The translations under genes were made by a program, and so were the position numbers. Of a stretch of DNA of 10,043 bases, positions 1 through 5,650 are shown piece after piece; positions within the stretch are counted from its first letter, which is position 1, and every line of letters begins with the position of its first letter. The notes under the pieces are model-generated. The model did not search any database and was not told where the DNA came from. It saw only the letters and a program-made list of their open reading frames with translations. The DNA lies in assembly GCA_001898095.1 (NCBI GenBank), contig MKSH01000059.1, positions 4,324 through 14,366 on the forward strand, read 5' to 3'. This DNA comes from Solirubrobacterales bacterium 70-9. GTDB taxonomy: Bacteria > Actinomycetota > Thermoleophilia > Solirubrobacterales > 70-9.

Positions 1-1658
1 TCATCCCCTTCCGACTCAAACAGGGCGTCTACGGGCAACGCCAGGCCGGCGTGCAGATGATCCGCGTGAAGCTGCCCTTCGGCGGGGTCTCACCCGAGCA
101 GATGGAGGCGTTCGCCGACGGAATCGAACGCTGGGTGCCGCTGAACAAAGGCCACATCACCACCCGGCAGAACATCCAGATGCACCACGTGCCGCTCGCC
201 CACGCCGCCGAGCTGATCCGCGAACTGGGCGACGCCGGTCTCTCCTCCCGCGAGGGTTGCGGCAACACCGTGCGCAACGTCACCGCCGATCCCTACGCGG
301 GGATCGCAACCGACGAGGTCTTCGACCCGACCCCCTACGCGGGTGCCTACGTCCGCTATTTCGTCCGCCACCCGGTCACCCAGGCGATGCCGCGCAAGTG
401 GAAGACCGCCTTCTCCTCCTCGGCGGCCGACCGGGCGATCGTGCCGATCCACGACATCGGCTTCCTGCCGGCGATCCGGGACGGCGAACGCGGCTTCGAG
501 GTCTGGGTCGGCGGCGGCACCGCGATCATGCCGCGCCTCGCCCACAAGATCTACGATTTCGTCGGCGCCGACGACGGCGAGTACCTGAAGGTGTCGGAGG
601 CGATCGTGCGGGTCTTCGACCGTCAGGACTGGCTGCGCAAGAACCGCGCCCGGGCGCGGATCAAGGTGCTGCTCGAGAAGATCGGCCCGGACGCCTTCCG
701 CGAGCTGGTCGACGAGGAGCTGGAAGGCGACTGGACCGAAGAACGCGACCACGCCGGCGACCTCGCCCGCCTGCGCTTCGACGACGACGAGGAGGCGCGG
801 GCGCCGGCGCGACCGCGGTTCCCGACCGAACCGAACGGCGACAGCTCGGCCTTCGAGGAGTTCGTCGAGCGCAACGTCACCGCACAGCGCCAGGAGGGCT
901 TCTACGCGGTCGCCGTCAAGGTCTTCCGCGGCGACCTCACGCCGGAGCAGTTCCGCGGCCTGGCGGCGATCATGCGCGAGTTCTGCGGCGGCAACGCCCG
1001 CACCTCGGTCGAGCAGAACCTCATCCTGCGTTGGGTCCGCACCGAGGCTCTCTACGACCTCTGGCGCCGGCTGGACGCGCTCGATCTCGCCGCCTCCGGC
1101 GCCTTCGAAATCGACGACGTGGTCAGTTGCCCCGGCACCGACAGCTGCAAAATGGGGATCACCGCCTCGATGGGCCTCAACCAGGCGATCTCGGAGCGAC
1201 TCGAGGAGATGGCGATCACCGACCCGCTCACCCGCCGGGTGCAGATCAAGATGAGCGGCTGCCCGAACGGTTGCGGCCAGCACCACATCGGCTCGATCGG
1301 CTTCTACGGCGCCTCGCTGAAGGTCGGCGGTCGGCAGATGCCCGCCTACATCCCGCACATCGGCGGTCGCGGCGAGGGTGGCGATCCGACGTTCGGGAGG
1401 CGGCTGAAATCACGGCTGCCCGCCAAGCGTGTCCCCGAGGCGGTCGAGCGCTGGCTGCGTATGTACGAGGCGGAGCGCGGGGCCGGCGAATCGTTCGATG
1501 CCTACGCCATCCGGGTCGGCAACGAGCGCTTCGAAGCCGAGGTGAAGCCGCTGACGCTGCCGGTCGAGTTCAGCCTCGGGACGATGGACGAGTTCATCGA
1601 CTGGCAGCGCTCCTCGCCCTACAAGGTCGAGCGGGGCGAGGGGGAGTGCGCGATCTAG
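1..1658 (+). CDS. Ferredoxin-type nitrite/sulfite reductase (siroheme, 4Fe-4S), 5'-truncated by window
   Basis: This enzyme carries out the six-electron reduction of nitrite to ammonium or sulfite to sulfide in the cytoplasm, using a siroheme coupled to a [4Fe-4S] cluster. The reading frame is open from position 3 and ends in TAG at 1656-1658. Residues upstream of the first ATG (51) read IPFRLKQGVYGQRQAG, which is family sequence, so the true start lies outside the window and roughly 20-50 residues are probably missing. Numbered from the ATG at 51, the cluster/siroheme cysteines are C360 and C366 (CPGTDSC) and C404 and C408 (SGCPNGC), all intact. The pseudo-symmetric ferrodoxin-like repeats are visible near residues 1-65 and 285-345, and the substrate/siroheme-pocket segments RNVTADP and PRKWK are present. 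There is no fused flavin domain, so the donor should be a ferredoxin. Neighbouring narGHJI favours nitrite as substrate, while the sulfurtransferase next door leaves sulfite possible. The family call is near certain; the substrate is not. Confidence 0.93.
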   Translation, partial: IPFRLKQGVYGQRQAGVQMIRVKLPFGGVSPEQMEAFADGIERWVPLNKGHITTRQNIQMHHVPLAHAAELIRELGDAGLSSREGCGNTVRNVTADPYAGIATDEVFDPTPYAGAYVRYFVRHPVTQAMPRKWKTAFSSSAADRAIVPIHDIGFLPAIRDGERGFEVWVGGGTAIMPRLAHKIYDFVGADDGEYLKVSEAIVRVFDRQDWLRKNRARARIKVLLEKIGPDAFRELVDEELEGDWTEERDHAGDLARLRFDDDEEARAPARPRFPTEPNGDSSAFEEFVERNVTAQRQEGFYAVAVKVFRGDLTPEQFRGLAAIMREFCGGNARTSVEQNLILRWVRTEALYDLWRRLDALDLAASGAFEIDDVVSCPGTDSCKMGITASMGLNQAISERLEEMAITDPLTRRVQIKMSGCPNGCGQHHIGSIGFYGASLKVGGRQMPAYIPHIGGRGEGGDPTFGRRLKSRLPAKRVPEAVERWLRMYEAERGAGESFDAYAIRVGNERFEAEVKPLTLPVEFSLGTMDEFIDWQRSSPYKVERGEGECAI

Positions 1659-1677: not shown

Positions 1678-1702
1678 TTTTACACACTAGTTATGTGTAA
1701 AA
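1678..1702. promoter_or_regulatory. Operator 1: perfect 25-bp dyad upstream of the sulfurtransferase
   Basis: The arms TTTTACACA (1678-1686) and TGTGTAAAA (1694-1702) are perfect inverted repeats separated by CTAGTTA. The site is an AT-rich island in GC-rich DNA, 20 bases after the reductase stop and 46 bases before the sulfurtransferase ATG. Related dyads with the same 9-7-9 geometry lie at 3164-3188 and 5626-5650. The core reads ACACT-N5-TGTGT. From memory, this is close to the ACACT-N5-TGTGA element reported for mycobacterial SufR. The right arm contains TAAAAT (1698-1703), a possible -10 element for the sulfurtransferase, so a bound repressor would cover the promoter. I infer that the binder is the regulator encoded at 4949-5626. 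Confidence 0.75.
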
Positions 1703-1728
1703 TCTGATCCGAATTCAGGCAATCAGAT
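1702..1728. repeat. Second inverted repeat in the sulfurtransferase leader
   Basis: ATCTGAT (1702-1708) and ATCAGAT (1722-1728) form a 7-bp perfect inverted repeat with a 13-base spacer that contains a further CC/GG pair around GAATTC. It sits between operator 1 and the ribosome-binding site. It could be a leader hairpin or a second protein-binding dyad. If TAAAAT at 1698-1703 is the -10 element, transcription starts near 1710 and the left arm is not transcribed, which would favour a DNA-level role. Confidence 0.4.
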
Positions 1729-1735
1729 GCAGTCC

Positions 1736-1740
1736 GGAGG
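1736..1740 (+). promoter_or_regulatory. Ribosome-binding site of the sulfurtransferase gene
   Basis: GGAGG lies 8 bases before the ATG at 1749. This consensus-strength site fixes that start for the sulfurtransferase. Confidence 0.85.
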
Positions 1741-1748
1741 TTTCTTGC

Positions 1749-2591
1749 ATGAGCTACGCGAAGGATGTCCTGGTCGAGACCGACTGGGTCGCTGCCCACC
1801 TCGACGACGATTCGGTGCGGGTCGTCGAGGTGGACGAGGATCCCACCCTCTACGCTGCGGGCCACATTCCCGGGGCCATCGGTCTCGACTGGAAGGCGGA
1901 TCTGCAGGATCCGGTCGAACGCAACTTCCTCGGTCCGGAGGACTTCGGCGCCCTGATGGGAAGTCGCGGGATCTCCAACGATCACACCGTCGTCCTCTAC
2001 GGCGACCGCAACAACTGGTTCGCCGCCTACACCTATTGGTATTTCCGCCACTACGGGCACCAGGCGGTGAAGCTGATCAACGGGCCGCGCGAAAAGTGGA
2101 TCGCCGAGGGACGGGAGACGAGTACCGAGGTGCCGTCCTTCGCCGCGACGAGCTTCGAGGTGACCTCACGCGACTGCTCGATCCGCGCCTTCCGCGACGA
2201 GGTCCAGGCAGCGCTCGGCGGCGACACTCATCTCGTCGACGTTCGTAGCCCGCAGGAGTTCTCCGGCGAGATCATCTCCCCGGCCGGGTACGAGCAGGAG
2301 GGGGCCCAGCGGGCCGGCCACATTCCCGGAGCCGCCTCGGTCCCGTGGTCGCAGGCGGTCAACGAGGACGGGACCTTCCGCTCGGCGGGGGAGCTGCGCT
2401 CCCTCTACACCGATAAGGGCGTCCTGGGCGACGACCGGCCGGTGATCGCCTACTGTCGGATCGGCGAGCGCTCGGCCCACACCTGGTTCGTCCTCCACGA
2501 GCTGCTCGGCCACCAGGAGGTCAAGAACTACGACGGCTCCTGGACCGAGTGGGGCAATCTGGTCCGCGCGCCGATCGAGCGCGGCGCCTGA
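1749..2591 (+). CDS. Thiosulfate sulfurtransferase (tandem rhodanese, CysA2/SseA-like)
   Basis: This cytoplasmic enzyme of 280 residues moves a sulfane sulfur from thiosulfate or a similar donor to a thiophilic acceptor through a cysteine persulfide. There are two rhodanese domains. The N-terminal one, about residues 8-125, is inactive and carries the AAGHIPGAIGLDW signature. The C-terminal one, about 150-275, contains DVRSPQEFSGE, RAGHIPGA and the active-site loop CRIGERS with catalytic Cys236. The loop and the NYDGSWTEWG tail match actinobacterial CysA2/CysA3-type sulfurtransferases nearly word for word, and the length is the family norm. It follows the nitrite/sulfite reductase by 90 bases but has its own operator (1678-1702) and a good ribosome-binding site, so it is probably controlled separately. 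It converges with the 4-helix membrane gene at 2615, 23 bases away. Possible roles are sulfur supply for Fe-S cluster repair or siroheme-enzyme maturation, or sulfur assimilation; the sequence does not decide between these. Confidence 0.95.
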   Translation: MSYAKDVLVETDWVAAHLDDDSVRVVEVDEDPTLYAAGHIPGAIGLDWKADLQDPVERNFLGPEDFGALMGSRGISNDHTVVLYGDRNNWFAAYTYWYFRHYGHQAVKLINGPREKWIAEGRETSTEVPSFAATSFEVTSRDCSIRAFRDEVQAALGGDTHLVDVRSPQEFSGEIISPAGYEQEGAQRAGHIPGAASVPWSQAVNEDGTFRSAGELRSLYTDKGVLGDDRPVIAYCRIGERSAHTWFVLHELLGHQEVKNYDGSWTEWGNLVRAPIERGA

Positions 2592-2598
2592 GGTCGGT

Positions 2599-2635
2599 GG
2601 CGCGGTCGCGGCCCTCAGGCGACCAAGGCCGCGCC
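2599..2635. terminator. Possible bidirectional hairpin between convergent genes
   Basis: GGTCGC (2604-2609) pairs with GCGACC (2619-2624) across a 9-base loop. GGCGC (2599-2603) can pair further with GCGCC (2631-2635) around a 6-base bulge. It lies between the sulfurtransferase stop (2591) and the end of the 4-helix membrane gene (stop at 2615), where a terminator is expected. There is no U-run, so this is a weak intrinsic-terminator call. Confidence 0.35.
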
Positions 2636-3082
2636 GAGGATGACGAGGGTCAAGGTGAGGAGCCCGATCGCGCCGCGCAGCGCCGCGGCGAGCACGGCGC
2701 CGCGGCGCACCTGGCCGGCGAGGGCGGGGGCGTCGATCGCGCGGCGTCGCAGCCGGGTCATCGCCCGCGCCTGCGCCATCCCGGCGGCGAGCGCCAGGAG
2801 CAGGGCCGCGGCGACGATCGCGGCGGCGACCAGGAGGCCGTCCCAGGGATGGTCGTCGAGCAGGATCGCGCCGGCCGCCAGGGCGACCAGGAGCGCGACA
2901 CTGCCGACGATGCCGTAGGTACGGCCCAGCGAACGGAAGAAGGCGATCCTCTGCGCCGGCTCGAGCGTCGCCGAGGCGGTCCGGGCGACGATGAAGATGG
3001 CGACGAGGCCACCGACCCAGATCGCTGCCGCCAGCGCCCCGACGACCAGCAGCGGAACCGAGGTGGCGAGCGGGGGGATCAA
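2615..3082 (-). CDS. Small 4-helix integral membrane protein, function unknown
   Basis: This is a strongly hydrophobic protein of about 155 residues. Four membrane segments are visible at about 9-34 (containing AAAIWVGGLVAIFIV), 54-75, 81-104 and 131-154, with an Arg-rich loop (TRLRRR) before the last helix. The layout loosely recalls CopD-like or DUF4149-type four-helix proteins, but I do not recognise a specific family and see no catalytic motif. A GTG at 3115 would give 166 residues starting with a non-family-like MQRLQGRRGQR stretch. I prefer TTG at 3082 because GAGGG sits 6 bases upstream and the TTG overlaps the stop codon of the 19-codon ORF (TTGA), a typical translational-coupling arrangement. 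An operator at 3164-3188 lies upstream, so it is a probable member of the same regulon as the sulfurtransferase. The gene is real; the start and the role are uncertain. Confidence 0.72.
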   Translation of the reverse strand: MIPPLATSVPLLVVGALAAAIWVGGLVAIFIVARTASATLEPAQRIAFFRSLGRTYGIVGSVALLVALAAGAILLDDHPWDGLLVAAAIVAAALLLALAAGMAQARAMTRLRRRAIDAPALAGQVRRGAVLAAALRGAIGLLTLTLVILGAALVA

Positions 3083-3138
3083 TCGCTGCCCTCGTCGTCC
3101 TTGGAGCCGCTGCACGACTCGGTGATCACGTCTGCCAT
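3079..3138 (-). CDS. 19-codon ORF resembling a ferredoxin N-terminus (leader peptide or gene remnant)
   Basis: The ORF runs from ATG at 3138 to TGA at 3079-3081 and encodes MADVITESCSGSKDDEGSD. It is preceded by GGGGGA 8 bases upstream and lies 25 bases downstream of operator 2. The first dozen residues match the usual start of actinobacterial [4Fe-4S]/7Fe ferredoxins (of the form MADVITEPCIGTKD followed by a cysteine cluster), but the cluster-binding body is absent in all three minus-strand frames downstream. Its stop overlaps the TTG start of the 4-helix membrane gene. It may be the remnant of a ferredoxin gene joined to another gene by deletion, retaining its promoter, or a short leader peptide now used for coupling. 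Coincidence is possible at this length. Confidence 0.4.
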   Translation of the reverse strand: MADVITESCSGSKDDEGSD

Positions 3139-3163
3139 CTGGCCCGTCCCCCGGGATCCGATC

Positions 3164-3188
3164 TTTTAAACACTAGAAATGTAAAAAT
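3164..3188. promoter_or_regulatory. Operator 2: imperfect copy of the 25-bp dyad upstream of the small-ORF/4-helix genes
   Basis: TTTTAAACA (3164-3172), CTAGAAA, TGTAAAAAT (3180-3188): the arms match as inverted repeats at 6 of 9 positions. The left arm is identical to operator 1 at 8 of 9 positions and the spacer also begins with CTAG. The core is ACACT-N5-TGTAA. It sits 25 bases upstream of the ATG at 3138 on the minus strand. The minus-strand reading contains TGTTTAAAAG, a possible -10 region placed like those in operators 1 and 3. It is less symmetrical than the other two copies and may bind more weakly. Confidence 0.6.
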
Positions 3189-3201
3189 ATCACGGAGGGC
3201 G

Positions 3202-3223
3202 CGGGCGGCCACTGGTCAGCCCG
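3202..3223 (-). terminator. Weak hairpin at the end of the hemerythrin gene
   Basis: CGGGC (3202-3206) and GCCCG (3219-3223) can form a 5-bp stem overlapping the hemerythrin stop codon. On the minus strand it is followed at some distance by a T-run (ATTTTT) that belongs to operator 2. The stem is short and the T-run is far away, so termination here is only a possibility. Readthrough into the next minus-strand genes cannot be excluded. Confidence 0.22.
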
Positions 3224-3647
3224 TCTCCTCGGCGGTCTCGATGGCCACCGCAAGGCGCTGCAGCGCGTCGGCATCGAGCGCCGCTTCGGCCGCCGGGAAG
3301 AGCTCGCGCTCCTCGAAGCGGACGTGGTCGTGCAGGAGCTTGCCCAGCGCCTGGACCTGCTCGATGGCGAGCCCGCCGAGCTGCAGGCGAAGCGCTTCGC
3401 GCCGGATCGCCAGGTGCTCCTCCAGCATCCGCGCCACTCCTGGTCGGTCGAGCTCGCCGAAGGCGGCCCAGCCAGGCAGCAGCACCTCCTCCTCGATGCG
3501 GAAATGGCGCCGGCCGTCCTTCTCCCAGAAAGCGAGGAAGGCCTGCGCGGCCGACTCCGCGTCATCCGCCTGCCGCAGCTTCCGCGCCGCGAGCAGCGCG
3601 GCCAGGTGCTCGCGGGAAAGGGGCTGCAGGGCCTCGGCGCGCTTCAC
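3216..3647 (-). CDS. Hemerythrin-type HHE cation-binding protein
   Basis: This is a 143-residue soluble four-helix-bundle protein predicted to hold a carboxylate-bridged di-iron centre. The ligand pattern is visible: H14 (SREHL), H48 and E52 (HFRIEEE), H78 (EEHLAIR), and H108 and E112 (HDHVRFEE). It is a full-length single-domain protein with no signal peptide, so it is cytoplasmic. Related proteins bind O2 or NO, or act in iron-centre repair or nitrosative-stress defence. The start is GTG at 3647, 10 bases after the stop of the 12-helix membrane gene, with GAGG overlapping that stop 8 bases upstream of GTG. It is therefore the third gene of a probable operon with the regulator and the membrane protein. 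A role in NO or oxygen sensing or scavenging fits the nitrate-reductase context, but this is inference. Confidence 0.9.
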   Translation of the reverse strand: MKRAEALQPLSREHLAALLAARKLRQADDAESAAQAFLAFWEKDGRRHFRIEEEVLLPGWAAFGELDRPGVARMLEEHLAIRREALRLQLGGLAIEQVQALGKLLHDHVRFEERELFPAAEAALDADALQRLAVAIETAEETG

Positions 3648-3657
3648 GACGGTCGCC

Positions 3658-4959
3658 TCAGATGCTCGGGCGGGCGGCGAGGAGGACGCGGCCGGCGAGC
3701 CGGGCGACGCGCAGCGCCAGCATCGCGTACACGGCGATCAGGAGCCATCTGGCCGGCGCGTGCAGGGACGCCGGCCCGCCCTTTTGCGCCAGTGCCAGAG
3801 CCGCCACGGCGAGCATCGCCAGGATCGAGACGAGGCGATCCAGGCGAGGCCGCGGGTCGGGCATGCGGGCGGTGAACCCGCCGCGCACGCGCACCACCAC
3901 GGCCAGTAGGTGCAGGAGCGACCCGAGCACGGTGAGCCCGATCCAGCCGGCGACCAGCAACGTGCCGACGGTGGCGCGCGTCGCACCCACCAGGGCCTCG
4001 TCGGGGCCGCGATCGATCGCGGCCGTCGTCGCCACCACCAGCGCGGCGAGCAGGAACGGCTGTGCGGCACCGACCAGGCGGGCGGCCAGGGAGAGCGGTC
4101 GGACCGCGCCGCGCAGGGAGGCGACGACGTTGATCAGCAGGGCGAGCGCCCCGAGGCAGAGGGCCAGCCATCCGGCGATCGCGAGCGGGTCGAGCGCCCA
4201 GGCGTAGCCGATCGCCAGCGCCGCGACGCCTCCGTTCCAGGCAGCGAAGGAGAGCGGCTGCAGGCGCGGGTGGCGCAGCTGGGTCTGGGTCAGCGATGGG
4301 TAGAAGGTGTGGAGGGTGCCGACGATCGCGCCGCCGAACCAGCCGGCCAGGTTGAGCGACATGTGGGCACCGAGGAGGTCTCCTTGGGCCCAGGGGACGC
4401 CGTGGGCGAGGAGTGAGCCGGCGAGCAGGCCGAGACCGAGGAAGAGCGCGCCGCAGCAGTACCAGGCCACCGCCCAGGGCGAGCGCCGCAGGGAGCGGCG
4501 CCACATCGTCGCGATCGCGAGGCCCCACGACGCGAGCGAGCCGACGAGGAGCCCGACCGCGATCCACACTGCGGTCCCGGCGTCGAGGGGGATGGCGAGC
4601 GCAAGGCCGATCGCGCCGAGGTTCCAGGCGGCGAGTTGGGCGCGCACGAGGCGCCGCGGCGGCGGGTCGGTGGCGAGGAAGGCGCCGACGAAGAACTGGC
4701 CGGCGCCGAGGACCAGCTGGGAGATGCCGCCGACGAAGGCCAGGTGGAGTGCGAGCCAGCGCCCCCAGGGCCAGGGGGCGACCGCCTGGACGATGGCGGC
4801 CACGGCGGCGGCCACGAGGAAGGCGATACCGCAGATGAAGAACGAGCTGACGACGTCGGTCGGCCGCAGGTCGCCGTCGCGTCGCGGCGCGGCCCGATGC
4901 CGGCACCGGCGCGGCTGGGGCGGCCTGCCTACCGGGAGCGCCGGCGGTTCAGTCGCCAC
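3658..4959 (-). CDS. 12-helix membrane protein with conserved histidines, heme-copper-oxidase-I/NnrS-like
   Basis: This 433-residue polytopic inner-membrane protein has about twelve hydrophobic segments, beginning after a short Arg/Pro-rich cytoplasmic N-terminus. Candidate metal or heme ligands are histidines inside helices: LALHLAFVGG (helix 2), LGAHMSLNLAGWFGG and GTLHTFYPSL (helix 6), and LLHLLAVVV (helix 10). Twelve helices with intramembrane His residues are shared by cytochrome-oxidase subunit I-like proteins and by NnrS, a heme- and copper-containing protein of nitric-oxide tolerance. The usual NnrS signatures are not obvious, so I do not assign that name. The chosen start is GTG at 4959, which overlaps the regulator gene by 11 bases. 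An in-frame ATG at 5037 would add 26 low-complexity residues that read like out-of-frame regulator sequence. Position between an Fe-S-type regulator and a hemerythrin suggests a role in NO or O2 handling. The membrane topology is secure; the function is not. Confidence 0.8.
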   Translation of the reverse strand: MATEPPALPVGRPPQPRRCRHRAAPRRDGDLRPTDVVSSFFICGIAFLVAAAVAAIVQAVAPWPWGRWLALHLAFVGGISQLVLGAGQFFVGAFLATDPPPRRLVRAQLAAWNLGAIGLALAIPLDAGTAVWIAVGLLVGSLASWGLAIATMWRRSLRRSPWAVAWYCCGALFLGLGLLAGSLLAHGVPWAQGDLLGAHMSLNLAGWFGGAIVGTLHTFYPSLTQTQLRHPRLQPLSFAAWNGGVAALAIGYAWALDPLAIAGWLALCLGALALLINVVASLRGAVRPLSLAARLVGAAQPFLLAALVVATTAAIDRGPDEALVGATRATVGTLLVAGWIGLTVLGSLLHLLAVVVRVRGGFTARMPDPRPRLDRLVSILAMLAVAALALAQKGGPASLHAPARWLLIAVYAMLALRVARLAGRVLLAARPSI

Positions 4960-5626
4960 CGTCGACCGGCCCCGAGACGGCGACGACGCAACCGGCGCGC
5001 TCCGGATCGTGTGGCTCGAAGCGCGCCAGCTTGGCATTCGGGATCAGTTGGGCGAGCAGCCCGCCGGTGATCCCCTTGTGCAGGGCGCAGACCACTTCCT
5101 GGTTCTCCATGGCCGACGCCCGGTAGGGACAGTTCTCGAGCTTGCAGACGAAGCCGGTCGAGCTGCGGGTCTCGAGCTCAGGGGAGAACCCGAGCGAGGC
5201 GACGGCCTGGCGAAATCCTTCGACCGGGTCGTCGCCCGGTTCCTCCGGGGCGAGTTCGCGGCCGATCTCGCGGCCCGCCTTCTCGACCTCGCGAAGCCGG
5301 TTGCGGCCCGGGGGGATGGCGCGCGCCAGCCAACGGGCCAGGTCGGCGTAGCCGGTCGGCCGATCGCCGCCGGGGGCTGCGCCAGGGGCGACGGACCAGA
5401 GGTCGCCCGGGCGGCCACGCCTGCCTTTGCTGCGGGTACGCTCGAGCAGCCCGGCCTCGTCCATCCGCTCCAGGTGTCTCCTGACGCCGTTCGGATGCAG
5501 ATCGAGCGCCGCCGAGATCTCCTCGGTCCCGGCGGGAGCCCTGTTGCTCGCCAGCCAGGAGAAGATCCGTGCCCGGGTTCGTTGTCGCAGTACGTCGTCC
5601 TCGAGGCGAAGGTCCATTCCGGACAT
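4949..5626 (-). CDS. SufR-like ArsR-type winged-helix regulator with C-terminal cysteines
   Basis: This is a DNA-binding transcription regulator of 225 residues (COG2345-type, the group that includes SufR). The winged helix-turn-helix spans about residues 12-80, with LDLHPNGVRRHLERM as recognition region and GRRGRPGDLW as wing. The C-terminal half contains C161 and C166 (FVCKLENCPYR), C180 (VVCALHKG) and C213 (AGCVVAV). That CX4CX13C plus distal Cys pattern resembles the Fe-S-binding part of SufR-like proteins, which sense iron-sulfur status, oxygen or nitric oxide. The gene begins 34 bases after narI and its start codon touches operator 3, which implies autoregulation. The annotated start is ATG at 5626, with AGGTGACC 8 bases upstream. 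A second ATG at 5617 (MDLRLEDD) is equally plausible, perhaps as a leaderless start. The family call is strong; Fe-S ligation and the signal are inferred. Confidence 0.88.
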   Translation of the reverse strand: MSGMDLRLEDDVLRQRTRARIFSWLASNRAPAGTEEISAALDLHPNGVRRHLERMDEAGLLERTRSKGRRGRPGDLWSVAPGAAPGGDRPTGYADLARWLARAIPPGRNRLREVEKAGREIGRELAPEEPGDDPVEGFRQAVASLGFSPELETRSSTGFVCKLENCPYRASAMENQEVVCALHKGITGGLLAQLIPNAKLARFEPHDPERAGCVVAVSGPVDGGD

Positions 5627-5650
5627 TTTACACAGGTCACCTGTGCTAAA
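5626..5650. promoter_or_regulatory. Operator 3: 25-bp dyad overlapping the regulator start
   Basis: TTTTACACA (5626-5634), GGTCACC, TGTGCTAAA (5642-5650): the outer arms match at 7 of 9 positions, and here the centre is also symmetrical, giving 7-bp perfect inner arms CACAGGT/ACCTGTG around a central C. The left arm is identical to that of operator 1. It fills most of the 34-base gap between narI and the regulator gene. On the minus strand it carries TAAAAT (5630-5625), a possible -10 element. Because it abuts the regulator's own start codon, autoregulation is the simplest reading. Confidence 0.72.

Follow-up and report, generated by a model that had tools for sequence, protein, structure and literature searches.

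Three palindromes in a Solirubrobacterales genome as probable operators of an ArnR-like regulator

Three palindromes of 25 bp and identical geometry precede gene starts in a 10,043-bp stretch of the genome of Solirubrobacterales bacterium 70-9 (contig MKSH01000059.1, positions 4,324 to 14,366; hereafter the window). They are very probably binding sites of one regulator that is built like a known nitric oxide (NO) sensor. That this regulator, encoded in the window, governs the palindromes as operators and, like ArnR, represses a nitrosative-stress regulon until NO lifts the repression, appears likely. The role of the regulon, whose gene set is conserved, would very probably lie in coping with NO and damaged iron-sulfur (Fe-S) proteins.

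The palindromes in the window

As an earlier note on this DNA had read from its letters, three dyads of 9-bp arms around a 7-bp spacer lie directly upstream of gene starts (Table 1). Site 1 (TTTTACACA-CTAGTTA-TGTGTAAAA) has no mismatch among its 18 arm positions, and site 2 (TTTTAAACA-CTAGAAA-TGTAAAAAT) has four and hence fell outside a search that allowed up to three. The distances are 46 bp from site 1 to the rhodanese ATG (1749), 25 bp from site 2 to the ATG of a small open reading frame (ORF; 3138) and 8 bp from site 3 to the conserved ATG of the regulator gene (5617), whose longest ORF begins at 5626, within the palindrome. A TAAAAT hexamer overlaps site 1 and site 3 at their downstream edges, and it is plausible from these letters that the dyads cover a -10 element, as the note proposed. 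A sigma-70 promoter scan around each of the three sites returned no promoter.

The palindromes are real, far beyond chance. None of 200 dinucleotide shuffles of the window contained a match with up to three mismatches. A symmetric position weight matrix (PWM) was built from 32 ferredoxin-promoter sites of other genomes only (33 genes examined, one dropped for its poor match); three of these 32 sites, from loci L052, L053 and L054, are sister counterparts of site 2, and counts of sites at ferredoxin genes are circular because the matrix was trained there. Its three best scores in the window fall exactly on the three sites; with shifted frames of sites 1 and 2 set aside, nothing else in the window exceeds 0.7, and no shuffle out of 200 reached 26.7, the maximum being 13.8. 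The shuffles, the reversed-pattern controls given below and the conserved arms and targets make chance, or AT-rich structural repeats devoid of a regulatory role, a practically negligible explanation, and a chance origin of the dyads was rejected. For the Solirubrobacterales motif, the proposed operator consensus is TTTnCACA-N7-TGTGnAAA, adjoining start codons. Dyads resembling a variant with an 8-bp spacer were seen at the ferredoxin promoters of L070 and L085.

Sites in the host genome

The assembly (4.2 Mb, 278 contigs, 84% complete) contains six sites with up to 3/18 mismatches and nine when a 16-base core with up to 3/16 mismatches is used; the control gave none in either case. All have a called start no more than about 50 bp away, the start at C61 being that of a candidate ORF, so that copies scattered away from genes, which the note had named as evidence against a regulon, are not what the genome holds. 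The nine sites precede the rhodanese gene, the ferredoxin remnant with the four-helix gene, the regulator gene, a DUF2249 gene with a membrane protein gene, RIC-2 divergent to OsmC, a cupin gene, RIC divergent to DUF488, an intact ferredoxin gene and, at a site with three mismatches, a group of ORFs that presumably resemble a nuo cluster. Among the own-genome loci that were read, the PWM adds two sites, of which one lies 26 bp before a COX1-type gene (21.1) and the other close to the end of contig C49 (19.6). The families of the site-linked genes are ScdA_N with hemerythrin, OsmC, DUF488, DUF2249, Cupin_2, Fer4 and COX1. The two RIC-type genes score 184.8 and 199.0 bits against the RIC equivalog model, just below its cutoff of 204.7, and the FdxA-type ferredoxin model gives 85.9 bits, below its cutoff of 125. 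A reading of the 662-aa COX1-type target as an NO reductase was rejected; among the models, CtaD matches the protein best (TIGR02891, 656.5 bits, slightly short of the cutoff of 670.75).

Conservation in related genomes

In 101 genomes, the own genome included, a regulator match was found in 48, and in 41 the match was at about 1e-29 or better. Several close regulator homologs are labelled Solirubrobacterales. The cut at 1e-29 for presence was chosen after the match list had been viewed; for the co-occurrence given below, alternative cuts yield p=4e-9 and 2e-12. The strict motif (TTTNCACA-N7-TGTGNAAA, up to one mismatch) occurs in 31 genomes, and its reversed control in none except G095 (six against one true match). 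Both are present in 27 genomes, the regulator only in 14, the motif only in four and neither in 56 (Fisher p=1.9e-10). The corresponding counts are 11/6/0/24 by genus (p=3.9e-6) and 28/20/3/50 when every regulator match to 1e-3 is counted (p=4.3e-9), with tests that ignore phylogeny throughout.

Sites were tallied up to 150 bp upstream of genes in 34 loci fetched for the regulator; loci L146 to L165, mostly fetched for the motif, were kept apart. The regulator gene is preceded by a site in 26 of the 34 loci, COX1 in 4/4, RIC-type genes in 2/2, OsmC in 1/2, MIP18 in 2/5 and the ferredoxin, the training family of the PWM, in 27/30. No upstream site was found in these loci for HHE (0/14) and four-helix genes (0/2). 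The background, taken over 60 loci, was 9 of 385 other coding-like ORFs. Ferredoxin orthologs (E<=1e-20) occur in 94 of the 101 genomes, and of 20 second copies sampled from regulator-bearing genomes none carried a site. In related Solirubrobacterales the motif stands at the genes of the regulator, a dedicated FdxA-type ferredoxin, RIC/ScdA repair proteins, OsmC and cytochrome-oxidase subunit I, and probably also at nirA. The dyads are largely kept in relatives wherever the genes are kept. Together with the few sites in the host genome and the co-occurrence of motif and regulator, this supports the note's idea of a single regulon, for which binding by the regulator is predicted.

Two further strong sites (L057:2661 and L158:6009) lie 44 and 102 bp upstream of ORFs that we take to be flavin-dependent-oxidoreductase-like. 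In G007, a chlorite-dismutase-family protein (L054, 6844-7539 on the minus strand; PF06778, 169.8 bits) has a site in common with the regulator.

Several findings weigh against the regulator as the common factor of an NO regulon. The strict motif is missing in 14 of the 41 regulator-bearing genomes, and 8 of the 34 regulator genes are not preceded by a site. Among the site-linked genes, those of the cupin, the rhodanese and DUF488 have no known tie to NO. No site was found in the regulator-fetched loci for DUF2249 (0/5) and DUF488 (0/5), which perhaps belong to the regulon in few lineages or sit at internal positions of operons. NarG, NarI and NarJ had none either (0/11), although nar is a target of ArnR. 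The enrichment at nar and nir genes that the note had suggested as a check is accordingly not seen for nar; for nirA there are weak sites upstream of the ORFs in three relatives (L052, L056 and L058, PWM 18.1, 20.5 and 22.0) and a weak dyad upstream of the start of nirA itself, outside the window (C59:4052, 12/16 matches). A NirA tally of 0 across the loci is uninformative, as the reference sequence begins inside the gene.

Lastly, the regulator is missing in four of the 31 motif genomes. G005 and G008 are 78% and 84% complete; in G010 (100% complete) the site is 48 bp away from the end of its contig, and the regulator match is weak and uncounted (5.4e-5); G012 (97% complete) is a true exception. 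These four genomes would suit a motif bound by another factor, for instance of the CRP/FNR family, with the winged-helix gene merely one of its targets, and autoregulation and regulation from outside read the same in a sequence. Such a factor is nonetheless quite improbable, since the regulator and the motif are present or absent together within the genera g15, g17 and g34, and a sample of ferredoxin copies from regulator-less genomes has no site (0/20). Moreover, the half-sites of CACA-N7-TGTG stand in the reverse order to those of CRP/FNR sites, TGTGA...TCACA and TTGAT...ATCAA.

The regulator and the proposed mechanism

The regulator consists of an N-terminal winged helix of the MarR/ArsR type and a C-terminal TRAPPC3-like sensory domain. 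It carries the signature C163-x13-C177-x2-H180-x29-C210, of which C163, C177, H180 and C210 are invariant in the alignment, and its neighbor in the window is narI. Both domains and the set of three conserved cysteines with a conserved histidine are those of ArnR-type proteins, with a second gap that differs by three residues. It is probable from these features that the protein is a [4Fe-4S] ArnR-like repressor; we file it as ArnR-like rather than as ArnR because the control of narKGHJI and hmp that belongs to ArnR was not found, as the nar counts above indicate. A site-linked MFS transporter of G006, in which the only domain found was MFS_1, may be NarK. Membership in SufR and in Rrf2/NsrR was rejected: the SufR_cyano model (TIGR02702) gives 15.1 bits against a cutoff of 178.8, over residues 19-77 only, and PF02082 gives 15.7 bits against 30, in the winged-helix part only.

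In the proposed mechanism the regulator would form a dimer, each subunit probably holding a [4Fe-4S] cluster on the three invariant cysteines and possibly the invariant histidine, as in ArnR. With its cluster intact, it would bind the consensus next to start codons and repress its own operon (regulator, heme-copper-fold membrane protein and hemerythrin), the dedicated ferredoxin, the RIC/ScdA Fe-S repair proteins, OsmC, cytochrome-oxidase subunit I and probably nirA; in this lineage the rhodanese and the former ferredoxin/four-helix unit would be repressed too. NO from nitrate or nitrite respiration would then nitrosylate the cluster and release repression. Judged by its position, site 3 is autoregulatory. 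The Fe-S cluster, the NO signal and repression rather than activation, like the binding of DNA by a dimer, we infer from ArnR, which is a well-matched relative.

The same regulator and operators could also respond to another signal in the manner of SufR, namely Fe-S cluster status, O2, nitrite or sulfur species. The site-linked rhodanese, DUF488, MIP18/DUF59 and OsmC fit Fe-S or sulfur stress, and SufR has the same three-cysteine design and controls Fe-S assembly (PMC6034842). We hold a different signal to be unlikely in view of the site-linked genes of two RIC-type proteins and, weakly, of a nitrite reductase, the hemerythrin in the regulator cluster, the adjoining narI, the low SufR_cyano score and a first cysteine spacing that is x13 as described for ArnR and not x12 as given for Rv1460 (PMC12343034; PMC6034842). 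The sign of regulation is unreadable from sequence, which would also suit an activator that recruits the polymerase when modified. For most sites, however, the start codon is about 60 bp away or less, a distance typical of repressors, and an activator is very unlikely. ArnR and SufR are both repressors (PMC12343034; PMC6034842). We retain the NO-relieved repressor as the best reading.

Genes of the window

Table 1 Features of the window discussed in the text
Feature	Position	Strand	Remarks
nirA, 3' part (nitrite/sulfite reductase family)	51..1658	+	family matches
Putative operator palindrome 1	1678..1702		perfect 9-7-9, PWM 33.6
Rhodanese, two-domain, 3-mercaptopyruvate-sulfurtransferase-like	1749..2591	+	PF00581 E=8.8e-32; downstream of palindrome 1
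Four-helix membrane protein	2615..3115	-	DUF4149-like, 24.0 bits vs cutoff 24.6; downstream of palindrome 2
Small ORF, FdxA-type ferredoxin-gene remnant	3079..3138	-	19 aa plus stop; DNA alignment
Putative operator palindrome 2	3164..3188		4/18 arm mismatches, PWM 29.7
Hemerythrin HHE protein	3216..3647	-	third gene of regulator cluster; PF01814 E=1e-9
12-helix membrane protein	3658..4959	-	GTG start from sequence; no Pfam/NCBIfam family; fold model
Regulator	4949..5617	-	winged helix (HTH_20) and TRAPPC3-like C-terminal domain
Putative operator palindrome 3	5626..5650		2/18 arm mismatches, PWM 26.7; between narI and regulator gene

The rhodanese scores 124.6 bits against PRK11493, below the cutoff of 250. 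Its gene was found in 14 other genomes (41 searched, E<=1e-60). The site is present in two of them, G007 (30.8) and G008 (30.3), at about the same place and with other spacer letters, and absent in 12. The place that the note gave the rhodanese in the circuit holds for these two genomes and the window and is not kept in the 12; on this distribution, site 1 is a lineage-specific recruitment of the rhodanese.

The small ORF, which the note paired with the four-helix gene, turned out to be the remnant of a ferredoxin gene. Aligned as DNA with intact ferredoxin copies from L052, L053, L054, L057 and L058 and from contig C254 of the own genome, it keeps about 14 N-terminal ferredoxin codons and a short later piece, with several amino-acid changes. 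L052, L053 and L054 carry counterparts of site 2, equally spaced from a downstream gene that encodes a complete ferredoxin; for this reason the small ORF is read from the alignment as a decayed ferredoxin gene, and site 2 now faces the four-helix gene, the start of which is probably the TTG at 3082. An assembly error as the source of the remnant is conceivable. In L160 (G098:C222), an ORF of 136 aa located 18 bp from a strong site at 3312 starts with MAYVTAEPSI like the regulon ferredoxin, has its first cysteine replaced by serine and then diverges; it is possibly a second ferredoxin-derived leader.

The gene order places the 12-helix protein in the regulator operon, as the note had it, and its description is amended to a predicted heme-copper oxidase/NO-reductase fold, that of the catalytic subunit (subunit I/NorB), according to the structural model. 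Of the usual histidines it has only four: H71, H198 and H216 are kept in 17/17 rows and H349 in the 8/8 rows that reach it. Helix VII has no histidine pair, and the full six-histidine heme/Cu ligand set of heme-copper oxidases is not present. No Pfam family matched up to E=10, in a search where HMMER filters discard the majority of matches weaker than about 0.1, and NnrS was rejected as a label for want of a match to its Pfam family (presumably PF05940). The gene is present in many regulator loci of Solirubrobacterales. In G012, two motif sites (L146 and L147) were observed, one of them at the 12-helix gene, and no regulator was detected.

Relatives of the regulator in Actinomycetota

Among 396 Actinomycetota genomes, matches of at least 46% identity over the whole protein were seen only in three genomes of this order (G000, G021 and G059). 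Any match occurs in 188 of the 396, the weaker relatives having mostly 26-40% identity. A MIP18/DUF59 gene adjoins the regulator relative in 22 of 27 fetched loci (L119-L145), and CACGGT-N4-ACCGTG, with up to one mismatch, occurs in eight of these distant-relative loci (reversed control 1/27); this is probably a different operator of a different clade. The genome of the window itself has 24 matches to CACGGT-N4-ACCGTG, including two perfect ones (C37:28536 and C267:2120), against three in the control.

The genome-wide search for NO-detoxification genes covered the globin domain of flavohaemoglobin, which was found in one of the 101 genomes, namely G093, where the regulator had no match; the same search was positive in E. 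coli and B. subtilis. It is possible, though short of probable, that ArnR/SufR-like [4Fe-4S] regulators with a winged helix and a TRAPP domain form a phylum-wide nitrosative-stress class in Actinomycetota with clade-specific operator codes, and that the NO defense of a flavohaemoglobin-less Solirubrobacterales branch relies on a dedicated ferredoxin that has been duplicated and on a heme-copper-fold protein outside Pfam that lacks the usual CuB/FeB histidines. We judged this reading likelier because the globin search bears out the absence of flavohaemoglobin.

Comparison with known regulators

The kind of control proposed here is already known, and we found no description of the regulon set in Solirubrobacterales; none of the open-licence papers listed, a part of those matched and judged by title and the start of the abstract, reports it, which is weak evidence of absence. 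For an order of soil actinobacteria, the outcome is a nitrosative-stress regulon open to testing, with operator, regulator and gene list defined, and genes of unknown role (the heme-copper-fold 12-helix protein, the dedicated ferredoxin, DUF2249, DUF488 and MIP18) are tied to probable NO stress.

The NsrR, HcpR, DNR and NnrR regulons respond to NO or nitrite and have palindromic sites and dnrN/ytfE (RIC) and nnrS among their core targets (PMC1274295). The RIC-type targets and the palindromes are similar here; in contrast, those regulators belong to the Rrf2 or CRP/FNR families and use other motifs, and NsrR sites in Bacillus and Streptomyces were reported upstream of hmp only (PMC1274295). SufR, a repressor of Fe-S assembly genes known from cyanobacteria and as Rv1460 from M. 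tuberculosis, shares the winged helix, the three cysteines and autoregulation, whereas C203, C216 and C244 of Rv1460 are spaced by x12 and x27 and its target is suf (PMC6034842).

ArnR of Corynebacterium glutamicum, a [4Fe-4S] NO sensor and repressor that controls narKGHJI and hmp, is similar in its MarR/ArsR-type winged helix and TRAPPC3-like sensory domain, its first cysteine spacing of x13, its conserved histidine, the link to nar genes and the context of NO detoxification; the likeness is one of described architecture and cysteine spacing (PMC12343034). The second cysteine gap differs (x32 here, x29 in ArnR), as do the targets: ferredoxin, RIC, OsmC, the regulator/heme-copper-fold/HHE cluster and oxidase subunit I here, narKGHJI and hmp in ArnR (PMC12343034). 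Unlike the hmp-controlling host of ArnR, 100 of the 101 genomes lack the globin domain of flavohaemoglobin. The reach of the ArnR-type sensor would grow beyond a single nar/hmp switch in corynebacteria, to a broader regulon in bacteria that have no hmp.

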